Shown here one piece after another: positions 11,576 through 20,776 of a stretch of 55,501 nt of DNA. Positions within the stretch are counted from its first letter, which is position 1; each line of letters begins with the position of its first letter. Below the pieces are notes generated by a model. The model saw nothing but the letters and a program-made list of their open reading frames with translations. It made no database searches and was not told where the DNA came from. Origin of the DNA: Chloroflexota bacterium (GTDB taxonomy: Bacteria; Chloroflexota; Limnocylindria; P2-11E); assembly GCA_005887995.1 (NCBI GenBank), contig VBJD01000033.1, positions 1 through 55,501 on the forward strand, written 5' to 3'. A program made the translations under genes and the position numbers.

Positions 11576-11886
11576 AGCCGATCGGCCGCGCGGTGGACCG
11601 GGCGCTTCGTGCGCTCGGTCTCGACCGCGACATCGCCCGCGCGGACGCGGTGCGCGCCTGGGACGACGCGGCGGTGAGCGTCCTGGGGGACGACGCGCGC
11701 CTCTGCCAGGCCGTCCGGGCCGATGGCGACACTCTCGTGGTGACCGTGCCGACGGCGCAGTGGGCCGGCGAAGTGCGGCTGCGCGAACGCGAGCTCGTCG
11801 CCGCCCTCGCGGCGCGCGCACCTTCGAGCGGCGTCACTCGGATCCGACCTGTCCCATCGTCGCGCGCGCCCACACCTGCGCGCTGA
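11572..11886 (+). CDS. DUF721/DciA-like protein
   Basis: Small protein overlapping recF by 4 bp; VRADGDTLVVTVPTAQWAGEVRLRERELVAAL; position after recF is typical. Confidence 0.75.
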   Translation: MKPIGRAVDRALRALGLDRDIARADAVRAWDDAAVSVLGDDARLCQAVRADGDTLVVTVPTAQWAGEVRLRERELVAALAARAPSSGVTRIRPVPSSRAPTPAR

Positions 11887-11906
11887 TATCTGGGAGACTC
11901 GCGCCA

Positions 11907-13985
11907 ATGCCCGCGACGTCATTCACCACCAAAGTCGGCAGCACGTCAGATGTGCGACCGAGCAAGTCCGAGGTCGTCGTCGTCAGCGAGCCCGAGACCG
12001 GCGCGCAGCTGCGCACGAAGGGACGGCTCTATCTCCTGTGCGAGGTCGCGGGCCCGGGATCGCCCACGACCGGCATGCAGGTCGCGCGCGAGGTCGCCGA
12101 CCTTACGAAGCAGGAGTACTACTACGACCTCTCCGGCGGCATCGAGGTGAGCTTGCGACGCGCGCTGCGGCAAGCGAATCGGCGCGCCTATCAGAAGCTG
12201 AAGGAAGGCCGCGCGAGGATCAGCCTCCACATCGCCTGCGCGGTCGTCGTGAACAACGAGATCTACGGATCGCGCGTCGGCGCGGCGCAGGTGTTCCTCG
12301 TGCGGCGCGCGAGGCTCTTTCTCCCGGGCGACGAGCCCGGGGAGCTCGCGGACTTCGTTCATCGCACGAGCGCGCGCGAGGCCGCGTCGCTCGGCACGGA
12401 CGGTGACGTCGTGCCGAAGGTGTGGCGTCAAACGATCGAGCCGGGCGACACGCTCATCATCGCGGCGAGCGCGCTCATCGACGGGCTCGGCGCGGAGGCA
12501 CTGAAGAGCGCCGCGGTGACCCTGCACCCGCGCGCCGCCGCCGACCATATCCACAACCGCGCGGTCGCGGACGGCGTCGAGGGCAGCGATGCCGCTCTTT
12601 TCGTCGAGCTCACGCAGTCCGCCGGCGCGGCGGCGCGTGTGGCGTCGGCGCCCGCATCGCTCAAGGAACCGACCGAGGTCGTGATCGCGGAGACCATCCG
12701 CTCGCGCATCGACGCGATCTGGCGTCACCGGCAGCGCATCGGCGGACTGGTGAAGACGGCGGCGTCGCCCGTCGCATCCGCGGCGACGAAGGGCGTGGCC
12801 GTCGGGCTCGAGCTCATGCCGAAGCGCGGCGCGACGCTGCCGCGGCATCCGGACACCGCGCGCCAGCGCTCGCTGCGCCAGCGCCGCGCGGTCACCAGCC
12901 TCGCGGTCGTGCTGCTGCTCGCCGCGGTCGGCGTCGGCGGCCTCGCCTATCGCGACTACGAATCGAATCGCGCGGGCCGCGACTATCAGAACGCGGTCCT
13001 ATCCGCGGAGGACAGCCTCGCGTCCGCGCACCGTCTCGCCGATCGGAAGCCTCCGGATCCCGCGGGCGCGCGCGCGAAGATCGCGGCCGCGCTCGCGAAG
13101 GTCGACGAGGCGAGTAGATCGCCGCTCGCGGAGAAGGGCCGGCTCGACGCGCTTCGCGCCGACGCCGCGCTGCTCGAGGATCGGCTCGATGGTGTGGTGA
13201 TCGACCTCGATCGGATCGCGGCCGGCTCGAAGCCACAGCAGATCATCGGCAACGTCAACGGTCTCTACGTCGCCGATCCGGGAGCGGGTCGGCTGTGGCG
13301 CATCTTCGGCGATCCACTGCAGACGGGCGTCGTGATGCAGAGGGGAGATAAGGGGGTCGGCGCGCCATCGCTTCTCACATGGCAGAGTGACGTCCTCTTC
13401 GTGCTCGATGACTCGCGCAAGATCTGGCGCGCCGAGGGCAATCAGGTGAACGACGTGACGCCTGACGACAACACCATCTGGAAGTCGACGACGGCGATCG
13501 CGGTGTTCACCCAGAATCTCTACGTCCTCGATGCAGCGTCCGGCCAACTCTGGAAGCACGAGTCGCCCGACTCGATCTCGTTCACGAAGGGCACGGCGTA
13601 TCTCGCGACGCCGCTTGTTCCGAACACGGCGGCCTCGCTTGCGATCGACGGTGACGTGTGGATCGTCACCACCACGAATGAGATCCAGCGGTTCCGCCGT
13701 AATCCCCTCGCGCTCACCGCGGGGCGCGTGGATTTCACGCCGAAGTGGCAGGGCGAGACGGTTCGACCCGCGGCCATCCAGGCCGTGAACGGCCAGACGA
13801 ACATCTACGTCCTCGATCCGGCGGCGCGTTACGTCGTCCAACTCTCTCGCGACGGCCGCGAGCTACTGCGGGTGGCCCTTCCGCCGACGCTCGCCGCCGC
13901 GACGGCGTTCTACGTCTCCGAAGGGTCGCGCGTGGCGTACACGGTGCATGGCTCGAAGATCGTGGCGACGAGCCTGGACCGTTAG
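11907..13985 (+). CDS. Degenerate PP2C-like domain, one TM helix, C-terminal beta-propeller-like ectodomain
   Basis: N-terminal PP2C-like pattern (GRLYLLCEVAGPG..GMQVAREVADL; VGAAQVFLVRRARLFL; GDTLIIAASALIDGL), TM VTSLAVVLLLAAVGVGGLAY, repeated propeller-like strands; start 11907 preferred over 11760. Confidence 0.72.
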   Translation: MPATSFTTKVGSTSDVRPSKSEVVVVSEPETGAQLRTKGRLYLLCEVAGPGSPTTGMQVAREVADLTKQEYYYDLSGGIEVSLRRALRQANRRAYQKLKEGRARISLHIACAVVVNNEIYGSRVGAAQVFLVRRARLFLPGDEPGELADFVHRTSAREAASLGTDGDVVPKVWRQTIEPGDTLIIAASALIDGLGAEALKSAAVTLHPRAAADHIHNRAVADGVEGSDAALFVELTQSAGAAARVASAPASLKEPTEVVIAETIRSRIDAIWRHRQRIGGLVKTAASPVASAATKGVAVGLELMPKRGATLPRHPDTARQRSLRQRRAVTSLAVVLLLAAVGVGGLAYRDYESNRAGRDYQNAVLSAEDSLASAHRLADRKPPDPAGARAKIAAALAKVDEASRSPLAEKGRLDALRADAALLEDRLDGVVIDLDRIAAGSKPQQIIGNVNGLYVADPGAGRLWRIFGDPLQTGVVMQRGDKGVGAPSLLTWQSDVLFVLDDSRKIWRAEGNQVNDVTPDDNTIWKSTTAIAVFTQNLYVLDAASGQLWKHESPDSISFTKGTAYLATPLVPNTAASLAIDGDVWIVTTTNEIQRFRRNPLALTAGRVDFTPKWQGETVRPAAIQAVNGQTNIYVLDPAARYVVQLSRDGRELLRVALPPTLAAATAFYVSEGSRVAYTVHGSKIVATSLDR

Positions 13986-15236: not shown

Positions 15237-15249
15237 TCCAATTAGCACC

Positions 15250-15999
15250 GTGATCCCGGCGACCGAAAAGGCCGGCACGAGCGCGCCCGTCGTCGATGTG
15301 GTCGTCCCCGTGTACAACGAGGAGCGCGACCTCGGCCCCAACATTCGCAAGCTGCACGCCTACGTTTCGGATCGCTTCCCGTTCCCGACGGTCATCACCA
15401 TCGCCGACAACGCGAGCCGCGATGGCACGCTCGCGCTCGCGCGGCGGCTCGCCGAGGAGTTGCCGGGAGTGCGCGTCATGCACCTCGACATGAAAGGGCG
15501 TGGCCGCGCGCTTCGTGCGGCGTGGACGCAGAGCGACGCGCAGGTCGTGACGTACATGGACGTGGACCTGTCGACCGACCTCGCGGCGCTGCTCCCGCTG
15601 GTCGCGCCGATCGTCGCCGGCGAGAGCGACGTCGGGATCGGCAGCCGTCTCGCGCGCGGCGCGCACACCCGCCGCGGAGTCAGACGCGAATTCATCTCGC
15701 GCGCGTACAACCTCGTGCTGCGCCTCGCCCTCGGCGCGCGCTTTTCCGACGCGCAGTGCGGCTTCAAGGCCGTGCGCGGCGAGGTGGCGCGGCAGATCGT
15801 GCCGCGCATCGAGGACCAGACGTGGTTCTTCGACACCGAGCTGCTTGTCCTCGCGCAGCGCGCCGGCCTGCGGCTGCACGAGGTGCCCGTCACGTGGACC
15901 GACGATCCCGACTCGCGCGTCGACATCCTCCGCACCGCGATCGACGACCTGCGCGGCGTGATACGCCTTCGCTTTGGGTCGCGGAGGCGCGCTCCCTGA
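15250..15999 (+). CDS. Glycosyltransferase family 2, dolichyl/polyprenyl-phosphate hexose synthase-like
   Basis: VVVPVYNEERDLGPNI...TYMDVDLSTDLAALLPLV...FSDAQCGFKAVR...DTELLVLAQRAGLRLHEVPVTW; GTG start 15250. Confidence 0.88.
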   Translation: MIPATEKAGTSAPVVDVVVPVYNEERDLGPNIRKLHAYVSDRFPFPTVITIADNASRDGTLALARRLAEELPGVRVMHLDMKGRGRALRAAWTQSDAQVVTYMDVDLSTDLAALLPLVAPIVAGESDVGIGSRLARGAHTRRGVRREFISRAYNLVLRLALGARFSDAQCGFKAVRGEVARQIVPRIEDQTWFFDTELLVLAQRAGLRLHEVPVTWTDDPDSRVDILRTAIDDLRGVIRLRFGSRRRAP

Positions 16000-17189
16000 G
16001 CGCACGATCCGATCGCGCCATCGCGCTGTCGCTCGCGGCGATCGGCGTCCTCACCTACCTCGCGGCGGGCTTCGGCCTGCTCACCGACTACGACTACTAC
16101 GGCCGCCTCGCGCAGGCGCTCGACGGCGGACGCTGGTGGCTCGACGAAGCGCCGCCCTGGCTCAACGAGCTCCTGCCCTGCGGCGACGGACGGTACTGCG
16201 TCGCGTATCCGCCGCTTCCGGCTCTCCTCACGGCGCCACTCGCCTTCTTTCTTCCGACCGCGCTCGCGCAGGTCCTCGTGTCGCGCATCGCCGGCGGCGC
16301 CTCCGGGGGCGTGCTCTTCCTCGGGCTTCGCGCGTTCGGCGCGCCGCGTCTCGTCGCCATCGGCGGTGCCGCGCTTTCGGCGCTCGGCACGACGCTCTTC
16401 TTCTCGTCAGTCGACGGACGCGCGTGGTTCGACGCGCACGCCGTCGCGATGCCGTTCCTCTGCGCGGCGTTCCTCTTCGCGTCGCGCGGCGATCGCCCCT
16501 GGCTGCTCGGCGCGGCGATCGGGCTCGCGACGCTCGCGCGTCTCCCCATCGTCGCCGCCACGCCGGCGCTGGTCCTGCTCCTCTCGCTGCGCGGCGGCAT
16601 CCCGCTGGCGCGCGCGCTCGGCGGCGTCGTGCTGGGCGGCCTGCCGTTCGCAGCGATCTACGTGCTCTACAACCTCCTGCGCTGGGGGACACCGCTCGAC
16701 GCGGGGTACGCGATGCTCACCGTCGGTGACGTGTTCTTCACGAGGGGACTCTTCAGCCTCTTCTATCTGCCGCGCCACTTCCAGGCGATCTTCATCGAGC
16801 CGCCCGACTTCGTCGAAGGCACGCCGTGGTTCCTGCGTCCGAGGGGGGTCGGCATGTCGCTCTTCCTGACGACGCCCGCGTTCGTGTGGATCTTCGCGAG
16901 CCTGCGCCACATGCGCCGCGATGCCGCGCTCGCGCTCACAGCGGTCGCGGCGCTGCTCGCACTGCTCCCTGATGTGCTCCACGGGACGGTCGGCTTCCAG
17001 CAGTTCGGCTACCGCTTCAGCCTCGACGCGCAGCCGTTCCTCGTCGCGCTCGCCGTCGCGGGCGACGCGCGCACGCGGGACGGCTGGCGTTCGCGGCCCT
17101 CGATCCCCTTCATCGTCGCGACGGTGCTCTCGGTCGCGATCAACCTCTACGCGACGATCGCGATCACGCGCTTCGGCTACTGGCAGTGA
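15996..17189 (+). CDS. Polytopic GT-C-like membrane glycosyltransferase
   Basis: LTDYDYYGRLAQALDGGRWWLD...YCVAYPPLPALLTAPLAFF plus many TMs; the called start at 15522 overlaps the GT2; an in-frame CTG at 15996 overlaps the GT2 stop, so the start is uncertain. Confidence 0.65.
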   Translation: MSARSDRAIALSLAAIGVLTYLAAGFGLLTDYDYYGRLAQALDGGRWWLDEAPPWLNELLPCGDGRYCVAYPPLPALLTAPLAFFLPTALAQVLVSRIAGGASGGVLFLGLRAFGAPRLVAIGGAALSALGTTLFFSSVDGRAWFDAHAVAMPFLCAAFLFASRGDRPWLLGAAIGLATLARLPIVAATPALVLLLSLRGGIPLARALGGVVLGGLPFAAIYVLYNLLRWGTPLDAGYAMLTVGDVFFTRGLFSLFYLPRHFQAIFIEPPDFVEGTPWFLRPRGVGMSLFLTTPAFVWIFASLRHMRRDAALALTAVAALLALLPDVLHGTVGFQQFGYRFSLDAQPFLVALAVAGDARTRDGWRSRPSIPFIVATVLSVAINLYATIAITRFGYWQ

Positions 17190-20100
17190 CGGAAGAGACC
17201 GAGCGCGCCGATCGCCGCGCGCGCATCGCGATCGCCGCGGTCATCGCCGTCGGCGTCGTCCTGCGATTCCTCGTCCTTCCCGCGAAGGGCTTCCCGTCGG
17301 ACGTCGCGACGTTCCAGGCCTGGGCGAGCCGGCTCGCCGAGGTCGGGCCCTCACGCTTCTACGAGCCCGGGTACTTCTCCGACTATCCCCCCGGCTACCT
17401 CTACGTGCTCTGGCTCGTCGGCCTCGTGTTCGACGGGCAGACGAAGTTCATCGTCAAGGCCGCGTCGATCCCCGCGGATATCGCCATCGCGTTGCTGTGC
17501 GTCTGGATCGTTTGGCGCGCGGCCGGTCGAGACCGCGCGGTCCTCGCGGCAGCGCTGTGGATGCTCGCACCCGGCCCGATCTTCGCCGGTCCGTATTGGG
17601 GACAGGTCGATGCGGTCGGGACCGTCCCGTTCCTGCTCGCGCTGATCTTCGCGGGACGCGGCAGCTGGGCGACCGCCGGGGCGATCGCCGGACTTGCCGC
17701 GATGGTGAAGCCCCAGTTCGGCGTCGCGCTGATCGTCGTCGCCGCGGGCGCGCTCTTCGTCTGGATCCGCGACGCGGACTGGCGGCCGCCGCTGCGCACC
17801 GCTGTCGCGGCCCTGCTGACGATCCTCGCGCTCGGCGTGCCGTTCCGCGCCGGCCCCGGCGAGCTCATCGACCTCGTGCGCTCGGCGTCCGAGACCTATC
17901 CCTTCACCAGCCTCTACGCGTTCAACATCTGGTCGATCGTCGGCGACTTCTGGAAGCCCGACGACCAGTACGTCGTCCTCGGCGCGATCCTGCTCCTTGC
18001 CGGTCTCGCGAGCTCGTGCGCGCTCCTCTGGTGGCGTCGCGATGTCGGCGCCTTCCTCGCATGCGGCGCGCTCGCCGCATTCGCCTTCTACTTCCTGCCG
18101 ACACGGGCGCACGAGCGCTATCTCTTCCCCGCGTTCGCGCTGCTCCTCCCGCTCGCGGTGCTCCGCGCGCGCCTGCTGGTGCCGTACATCTCGCTCGCGA
18201 TCGCGTTCGCGGCCTCGCTGTACTTCGCCTTCACGCGCTACCCGCAGAACGACCTGCGGTCGCCGCAGTGGCTCGAGGACTCGCTCTTCACCCGCAACGG
18301 CCAGATCGCGCTCGCTCTGCTCATGCTCGGGCTCGCCGCGTTCATTGCCTGGCGGCTGTTCCGCGGCGATGCGGCGCTGGAGGCGGATGAGGAGACGATC
18401 ACCATCGCGTCGCGGCCATTGCCGCCTCCCGCGCGGCCGGACGATCGCTGGCGTCTGCCGGCCGCGCTGTCTCTCGGGCGACCCCCGACTCGTCGCGACA
18501 TCGCGAGCGCGTTCCTGGTCGCGTTGGTGGTGCTCGTCACACGCGGGTACCGGCTCGATCAGCCGCGCGACATGTACTTCGACGAGGTCTATCACGCGCG
18601 CACGGCGTACGAGCTCCTCGCGCAACGCGAGCCGTACGAGTGGACGCATCCACATCTGGCGAAAGAGATCATGGCCCTCGGCATCCTCGCGTTCGCCGAC
18701 GATCGCGTCGTCGGCACGGAGCCCGCGAATTCACAGGTGCGGGCCTTTGCCGTCGCCAACGACGGACTACGCGCGGTCGTTGAGCCAGACGCGCTGGTCC
18801 TCCGTGACCGTAGCGGTCGTCAGCTCGCCCGCGCTCCGATCACGAATCTGGATCGCCCGGATGCCGTGGGCTTTGACGGCGAAGACGTTGTGTTAGTCAC
18901 CGAGTTCCAGGTCGCGCGGCTCGGCCGCGACGGGAGCGTGAAGCAGCGCGTGAGGCTCACGACCATGAGCAGAAGCGCCCCGAGGTCTCTCGTCATCGAG
19001 AACGGCCGGATCGTGATCGCTGGCGACGGTGGCATCGAGATCTACCAATCGCTCGAGACGAAACCACAGGTGATCCCAACTCCAGTCGTGGCCGCGACCG
19101 CCAAAACCGATGGCAGTGTTGTCTATGCGGTCGACCAAGCCGGTGTTGTTCATGTCATCGACGTCGCGAACGCCAAAGAGACGGAGACGCTGAACGCGCG
19201 CGGTCCCGCTGGCGCGATCGCGTACGCGCAGGGCCCGAACCGCCTCTTCCTCGCGCGGACAGACACTCCGGCGCTCGACATCATCGACCTCGAGGGCCAC
19301 GCGACCGACACCGTCCCGCTCGGCAACGCGCGGACCGGTGACTTCACGGAGGGCGCGAAAGCGCTGGCGGTCGTGCCACGCACGCAGTTCCTCTACGCGC
19401 TTGTCCCGGGGAAGGTCGTTGCGATCGAGACGCACGGCGCGTCGCCGTTCGCCTCGACACCGGTGCGCGAGTCGGATCGGTTCCTCGGCGTCGACGGCCA
19501 GGACGACAAGCTCGTCGTCGCGGGGAGCGATGCGGTCGAGCGCATCGAGACCGGGAGACAGGCGCTCGCGTGGCGCATCCCTGGCGTCGTGTTCGGGGCG
19601 CTCCTGGCGTTCTTCCTGTACCTGCTCGCGCGGCGCCTCTTCGCGTCGCCGCTCGTCGCGTACCTGGTCGGCGCCGCCGTCGTGCTCGACGGATCGATGT
19701 TCGCGCAGGCGCGCATTGGCATGAACGACATTTACGTGACGACGTTCATCGTCGGCACGTGGTACTTCATCGTCGCCGCTCATCGACCGCGTCGGGCGGC
19801 ATGGCTCGACCTGCTCATCGCCGGCGCGCTCATCGGGCTCGGCGCGGCGTCGAAGTGGGCGGCGATCTACACGCTCGCCGGGATCTTCGTCGCCTCACTC
19901 GCGGTGACCGCGTACGCGTACGAGCGCGGCCGCCCCGGCACCGGCGGCCCGCTCGATCTCTTCGCCGGGAAGGGCCGCAACGCCGCGTTCCTCTTCGGCT
20001 GTTTCGCGCTGATCCCTGCGGTGCTCTACCTCGGCTCGTACGTGCGCTGGTTCGGCGGTCCGACGGCGCCGTATGGCTGGAATCTCGTCGAGCTGACGCA

Positions 20101-20776
20101 GCAGATGTACTGGTACCACAGCTCTCTCACGGCGCCGCACTGCGCGGGATCGCCGTGGTGGGCGTGGCCGCTCGACCTCAAGCCGGTGTACTGGTATTTC
20201 GGCGGGAGCACCGGGAACTTCAACGGCTACATCTATGACGCGGGCAACCCGATCATCTTCTGGGCCGCGCTTCCCGCGGCGGCGATCGTCGGCGGTCTCG
20301 CGTATCGCGCACGATCGGTGACGCTGGGCTTCGTCGCGCTGGCGATGCTCACGCAGTTCGTCGCGTGGATCCCCATCTCACGCGTCCTGTTCTTCTATCA
20401 CTTCTTCACGGCGCTGCCGTTCTACCTTCTGTGCCTCGCCATCGTGCTCGCGATCCTCTGGGAACGACGACGTACCGCGGTCAGGGTGTTCGCGATCCTC
20501 GCCGTCGTGGCATTCGTCTTCTTCTATCCGTACGTGTCCGGCCTACCGGTACCCGGCGAGCTCGGGTCGGCGTATCAGATCCTTCCGACCTGGGCATACG
20601 ACCCGACGTTCAATCCGACCGATTCGTGCCCGACGCCAGTGTCCGCCGCGACGGCGACGAGCCTTGAGATCGGCATCGCGTGGATCGTCGAGGTCGGCGC
20701 GCTCGCGCTCGCGCTCGCGGTCGCCTTCGCATACGAGCCAGCCCGCCGGCTGCTCGCGCGCATCGGCGTCATTTAG
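17186..20776 (+). CDS. Fused GT-C (Gpi18/PIG-V-like) and PMT-family protein with inserted beta-propeller-like segment
   Basis: N-part: FPSDVATFQAWA...SDYPPGYLYVLW...GQVDAVGTVPFLL...MVKPQFG...RAHERYLFP; C-part: YFDEVYHARTAYELL...THPHLAKEIMALG, then about 290 aa of propeller-like sequence, then RIPGVVFGALLAFFLYLLARRLF...RIGMNDIYVTTF. Confidence 0.85.
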   Translation: MTEETERADRRARIAIAAVIAVGVVLRFLVLPAKGFPSDVATFQAWASRLAEVGPSRFYEPGYFSDYPPGYLYVLWLVGLVFDGQTKFIVKAASIPADIAIALLCVWIVWRAAGRDRAVLAAALWMLAPGPIFAGPYWGQVDAVGTVPFLLALIFAGRGSWATAGAIAGLAAMVKPQFGVALIVVAAGALFVWIRDADWRPPLRTAVAALLTILALGVPFRAGPGELIDLVRSASETYPFTSLYAFNIWSIVGDFWKPDDQYVVLGAILLLAGLASSCALLWWRRDVGAFLACGALAAFAFYFLPTRAHERYLFPAFALLLPLAVLRARLLVPYISLAIAFAASLYFAFTRYPQNDLRSPQWLEDSLFTRNGQIALALLMLGLAAFIAWRLFRGDAALEADEETITIASRPLPPPARPDDRWRLPAALSLGRPPTRRDIASAFLVALVVLVTRGYRLDQPRDMYFDEVYHARTAYELLAQREPYEWTHPHLAKEIMALGILAFADDRVVGTEPANSQVRAFAVANDGLRAVVEPDALVLRDRSGRQLARAPITNLDRPDAVGFDGEDVVLVTEFQVARLGRDGSVKQRVRLTTMSRSAPRSLVIENGRIVIAGDGGIEIYQSLETKPQVIPTPVVAATAKTDGSVVYAVDQAGVVHVIDVANAKETETLNARGPAGAIAYAQGPNRLFLARTDTPALDIIDLEGHATDTVPLGNARTGDFTEGAKALAVVPRTQFLYALVPGKVVAIETHGASPFASTPVRESDRFLGVDGQDDKLVVAGSDAVERIETGRQALAWRIPGVVFGALLAFFLYLLARRLFASPLVAYLVGAAVVLDGSMFAQARIGMNDIYVTTFIVGTWYFIVAAHRPRRAAWLDLLIAGALIGLGAASKWAAIYTLAGIFVASLAVTAYAYERGRPGTGGPLDLFAGKGRNAAFLFGCFALIPAVLYLGSYVRWFGGPTAPYGWNLVELTQQMYWYHSSLTAPHCAGSPWWAWPLDLKPVYWYFGGSTGNFNGYIYDAGNPIIFWAALPAAAIVGGLAYRARSVTLGFVALAMLTQFVAWIPISRVLFFYHFFTALPFYLLCLAIVLAILWERRRTAVRVFAILAVVAFVFFYPYVSGLPVPGELGSAYQILPTWAYDPTFNPTDSCPTPVSAATATSLEIGIAWIVEVGALALALAVAFAYEPARRLLARIGVI

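Follow-up and report, generated by a model that had tools for sequence, protein, structure and literature searches.

A fused GT-C::PMT membrane protein of Chloroflexota with a predicted beta-propeller inside the first outside loop of its PMT module

We analysed a window of 55,501 nucleotides (the whole of the stretch of DNA taken from contig VBJD01000033.1 of a Chloroflexota bacterium, assembly GCA_005887995.1) and found that it encodes a fused GT-C::PMT protein (Table 1). The reading frame named in the original prediction is open and intact, and all of the motifs quoted for it are present, namely SDYPPGYLYVLW, WGQVDA, MVKPQ, RAHERYLFP, FDEVYHARTA, THPHLAKEIMALG, RIPGVVFGALLAFFLYLLARRLF and RIGMNDIY. 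It begins with a GTG start codon, which overlaps the stop codon of the upstream gene (GTGA). The membrane protein encoded by this upstream gene gives a weak NCBIfam match to the LA_3751/LA_3752 putative glycosyltransferases and one to PRK13375 mannosyltransferase, and adjoins the fusion in nearly all loci of the family, L048 being an exception. It is preceded by a GT2 gene, for which dolichol monophosphate mannose synthase 5mlz is the top hit in the PDB (E=9e-10). Most loci of the family have a different GT2 as neighbour, on the opposite strand, which leaves the 405-aa membrane protein as the sole steady neighbour. Farther upstream, at 11760-13985 of the window (+ strand) and in conserved synteny with the fusion, lies a gene for a protein with a PP2C-like N-terminal part, a transmembrane segment and a propeller-like outside part. 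An origin of the insert described below from this propeller-bearing neighbour was not supported, as no similarity was found between the two (E=2.4).

Table 1. Features of the fusion gene and its neighbours, in positions of the window
Feature	Position	Strand	Basis
GT2, dolichol/polyprenol-phosphate mannose synthase-like, candidate donor maker	15244..15999	+	Pfam GT2, E=4e-20
Polytopic membrane protein, 405 aa, upstream of and overlapping the fusion; possible third GT-C enzyme	15972..17189	+	
Fused GT-C::PMT protein, 1196 aa	17186..20776	+	intact ORF and homologues
GT-C module, aa 14-395, GT87 / GPI-mannosyltransferase-like, about 12 TM helices	17225..18370	+	Pfam, profile match, helices
D39, putative catalytic base of the GT-C module	17300..17302	+	invariant in 43/43 homologues
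Linker between the modules, aa 396-435, predicted cytoplasmic	18371..18490	+	low pLDDT, net positive charge
PMT part 1: TM1 and start of EL1, DE motif D466-E467 (nt 18581-18586), THPHLAK	18491..18706	+	
Predicted seven-bladed beta-propeller within EL1, aa 508-789 (282 aa)	18707..19552	+	AlphaFold2, Foldseek, profiles
Blades 6-7, conserved propeller side: LxNxRTG, ExHGxSP, D770	19304..19552	+	
PMT part 2, aa 790-1145: TM2-TM11, EL2 R843-x4-D848, EL5 R1066-x2-F1069, short EL4	19553..20620	+	
C-terminal tail, aa 1146-1196, poorly conserved, one extra TM helix	20621..20773	+	

Pfam places GT87 at aa 67-298, PMT at aa 792-949 and PMT_4TMC at aa 967-1136 of the protein, each above its curated cut-off, and adds a weak hit to Beta_propel in the central part. 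These matches bear out the proposed order of two modules, GT-C followed by PMT. Each module has about 12 transmembrane helices, as judged from the helix count and the charged loops. The topology was assigned by hand from helices and loop charges, with no predictor run. By the positive-inside rule, this assignment puts the linker and the turns rich in arginine on the inner face, and the propeller, like the two catalytic loops, on the outer face.

The N-terminal module matches GT87 with 30.7-33.4 bits against a cut-off of 25 (E=5e-8 for the GT-C module alone), and among solved structures GPI mannosyltransferase 1 is its nearest profile match (E=8e-5). Originally described as a Gpi18/PIG-V-like GT-C module, it needs correction in its family name alone: GT87 is the curated match, and the Pfam PIG-V model gave no match at E<=1 on the fusion protein. 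The putative catalytic base D39 follows TM1 of this module, at the beginning of the first helix in EL1, and K175 and H309-E310-R311 are likewise invariant in 43 of 43 homologues. By position and motif rather than by alignment, D39, K175 and H309 appear to resemble D58, K195 and H322 of the GT87 enzyme PimE, the acceptor of which is a glycolipid (PMC12041525). The module thus shares its fold family, and a similar placement of the EL1 aspartate, the lysine and the histidine, with PimE and GPI mannosyltransferase 1, but differs from both in being fused to a PMT.

The second module scores 53.2 bits against the PMT model (cut-off 22.7) and 50.6 bits against PMT_4TMC (cut-off 32.4), and its profile matches yeast Pmt1 (E=8e-9). 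With the NCBIfam equivalog NF058602 (protein O-mannosyltransferase) it reaches 49.3 bits against a cut-off of 800, and we therefore do not claim it as that equivalog. Its first part is the most conserved stretch of the whole protein, with 84% mean identity within the family. Mutation has identified D74, D176, R441 and Y444 as important residues of MtPMT (PMC12331936), and their counterparts D466, D848, R1066 and F/Y1069 are kept in all 43 homologues, D466-E467 corresponding to D74-E75. The last of these positions, in EL5, is F or Y among the homologues, and yeast Pmt1 has F as well. With the bacterial PMT of M. tuberculosis, Rv1002c (PMC12331936), the module shares the 11-TM core, the DE motif in EL1, the aspartate in EL2 and the R-x2-aromatic motif in EL5, whereas Rv1002c has neither a GT-C fusion nor an EL1 domain and carries a WW-like segment in its EL4. 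The eukaryotic Pmt1/Pmt2 and Pmt4 (6p25, 9e61) likewise have a large outside domain inserted in one loop of the PMT core; there, however, the domain is a MIR beta-trefoil in EL4, and here it is a propeller in EL1. A MIR domain was not matched in the EL4 of the fusion protein, which is only about 68 aa long.

The interruption of the PMT module, announced as about 290 aa in the first long outside loop, measures 282 aa and is located in EL1, between the catalytic DE motif and TM2. Its boundaries follow from PMTs that lack the insert, including P0003 of L060: in these the helix after THPPLGK continues uninterrupted into GWRI, so that the counterpart of ALGILAF is followed directly by F-GWRI. AlphaFold2, run on 26 aligned homologues, yielded a model with a mean pLDDT of 80.5 and a pTM of 0.76, in which the insert forms 28 strands, that is seven blades of four, mostly at a pLDDT of 80-95. 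The pLDDT falls below 50 close to the active site and around some parts of EL4. A Foldseek search with the insert returned solved propellers throughout the ranking, with TMt values of up to 0.82 to seven-bladed propellers (7big and 5yzv; a seven-bladed designer protein and a bacterial WD40 domain). Sequence profiles, which use no structure, independently point to the surface-layer propeller 1l0q (7e-8), Tako8 (1e-6) and YncE at the insert. The propeller-like nature proposed for the insert is thus confidently predicted. Three homologous inserts and that of the distant L068 match PQQ_2/BamB; for the distant L059, whose insert is modelled poorly in its middle, we rely on the general propeller nature alone.

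Conservation is distributed unevenly over this domain. Within the family, positions conserved at 90% or more amount to 21 of 46 in blade 6 and 7 of 37 in blade 7, compared with 1 of 82 in blades 2-3. Across the class, D770 is invariant and an E-P-H-G-N-like motif is common. Overall, the propeller retains 42% identity within the family and 18% to class relatives, and with such fast evolution a specific ligand is not evident. The pattern probably reflects a docking side that is conserved, close to the junction, and an outer side that varies, and variable blades 2-3 together with a conserved blade 6 would fit a docking role and a scaffold role equally well.

The search for the same architecture in other genomes found it across the class. 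Matches were obtained in 60 of the 61 relatives searched, and direct reading of the frames placed GT-C module, PMT module and insert in one frame in 22 members of the family and in 21 members from other families of the class, counting L059, whose lineage no tool placed, among the latter. All 43 proteins, of about 1,140-2,500 aa, have the order GT-C, then PMT with insert, and every one of them has kept the propeller, at a size of about 280 to about 450 aa. Class relatives are longer than family members: their inserts span about 300-450 aa, and a second insertion of about 50-200 aa, hydrophobic in those read, lies between TM6 and TM7 of the PMT. In the PMT tree the fused forms make up one clade (SH-aLRT 96-99). 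Outside the class, a sample of 300 genomes of the phylum contained separate PMT proteins (about 500-750 aa) or separate GT-C proteins, and the PMTs read from these lineages have no insert. GT-C and PMT genes within about 3 kb of each other were not found in the other Chloroflexota sampled, so the two enzymes are not always coupled. Many genomes of one family of the class (f4) encode an additional stand-alone PMT, which forms its own clade. In the tree of the GT-C module the backbone was unresolved and two rows (L031, L032) had been chosen wrongly, so it was not used to date the fusion. The architecture is new and its component folds are already known; the propeller-bearing GT-C::PMT form is real and class-wide, and evidently old.

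Several side observations concern individual genomes. A genome of the same genus contains a stand-alone GT-C paralogue, 58% identical and without the PMT part (L101:1131-3176, - strand). Class relatives of 2,180-2,530 aa occur in L066, L068, L072, L078 and L080, most of which have more than 500 aa of extra N-terminal sequence that is possibly untranslated, as the frames were read from stop to stop; L078 has a C-terminal extension of roughly 970 aa. A plasmid or phage origin found no support, with no match in plasmids and no PHROG.

In the clostridial phylum, to which L060 belongs, PMT matches occurred in 8 of 200 sampled genomes. A GT87/Gpi18-type GT-C gene adjoins the PMT gene in L122, L123 and L127 and lies nearby in L128, and L121 (3521-6592) encodes a GT-C::PMT fusion of 1023 aa in the same order as ours. 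The same two enzymes are thus paired, but the clostridial PMTs, that of L121 included, form a clade separate from the fused Chloroflexota forms (support 100), and the L121 fusion therefore most likely arose independently. Adjacency and independent fusion together support a functional partnership of the two enzymes. Instead of a propeller, the clostridial PMTs carry a domain of 139-150 aa, in some of them (L121 included) of the F5/8 type, which lies in EL1 before the DE motif. EL1 has accordingly accepted outside domains recurrently, and the sequences seem to mark it as a recurrent docking site for domains.

These findings suggest a single-chain machine for protein glycosylation. We propose, as an evenly balanced proposition, that the protein is a fused GT-C enzyme with two active sites in an extracytoplasmic protein O-glycosylation pathway, with the propeller positioned above the PMT groove. 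The PMT module would use a polyprenyl-phosphate donor to transfer a hexose, most likely mannose, onto Ser/Thr of exported proteins, and the GT87-like module would add a further residue to that glycan from a polyprenyl-phosphate sugar. The propeller may sit on the outer face above the acceptor groove, although the model has a pLDDT below 50 near the active site; blades 6-7, next to the junction, would pack their conserved side on the enzyme, and the variable blades could contact the acceptor or a partner. We infer the two activities, which sugar is used, the sequence of the reactions and what the propeller does. A single protein that begins a glycan and also lengthens it is plausible, and gains likelihood from the catalytic residues conserved in both modules and from the adjacent and fused genes in clostridial genomes. 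The synthase-like GT2 and the membrane protein directly upstream point towards the same pathway. A more far-reaching version, in which the EL1 propeller holds the exported protein over two sequential active sites, so that the enzyme is a complete acceptor-capturing initiator and extender of O-glycans and an alternative to the eukaryotic MIR solution, may be entertained tentatively.

Other explanations have to be weighed against this proposal. A chimeric assembly or a fused reading frame is extremely improbable: the MAG L057 does split the frame inside the insert, but the fusion is intact in some 40 MAGs with a conserved neighbourhood within the family, and an isolated assembly fusion is ruled out by the conservation across the class, with separate halves in lineages outside it. 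In L057 (5989-10304) the break inside the propeller leaves the fusion as two ORFs. Yeast PMTs function as dimers, and fusing membrane partners is a common route to a fixed stoichiometry. The protein could accordingly be a covalent GT-C pair, comparable to the Pmt1-Pmt2 heterodimer, with a GT-C half that is mainly structural or serves the same hydroxyl step instead of extending the glycan. This we consider unlikely, as that half derives from GT87-like rather than PMT stock and has retained a putative catalytic base and donor-binding residues of its own in 43 of 43 homologues.

The acceptor might also not be a protein. A lipid or a cell-wall polymer could be decorated instead, with the propeller binding the polymer or a surface-layer component. 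The glycolipid acceptor of PimE (PMC12041525) would be in keeping with this, as would the Methanosarcina surface-layer propeller, the best solved natural propeller by profile (E=7e-8). PMT_4TMC and the counterparts of all four MtPMT active-site residues, however, point to protein acceptors, and make a non-protein acceptor rather doubtful. Finally, the propeller may act in EL1 as a passive scaffold or as an aid to stability, without a part in acceptor choice, which would be compatible with either enzymatic model. Conservation centred on blades 6-7 near the junction, while the remainder drifts, is what such an element could leave behind. Yet all fused homologues read in the class have the propeller, with a size that varies, and a different domain occupies the clostridial EL1, which suggests selection for a domain at this place; we regard the scaffold role as a minority possibility that still deserves attention.

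In eukaryotes, interest in how PMTs select their acceptors has centred on the MIR domain in EL4. The fusion protein presents a different domain at a different loop, always with a second GT-C enzyme attached in the cases read, and thereby offers a clean case in which to test acceptor selection and glycan extension within a single polypeptide. It also implies an O-glycosylation system across an uncultured class of Chloroflexota. In the literature accessible to us, which left subscription papers mostly out of reach, we found no PMT with a propeller, no O-mannosylation in Chloroflexi, no biochemical work on any of the fused proteins and no paper describing such a system. In two of the clostridial genomes (L123:1209-8001 and L127:264-6979), the PMT, the GT-C enzyme and a membrane-anchored WG-repeat protein are encoded in a run, neighboured by a cellulase-like protein that has long repeats of Thr-Pro and is a possible O-glycosylation substrate.
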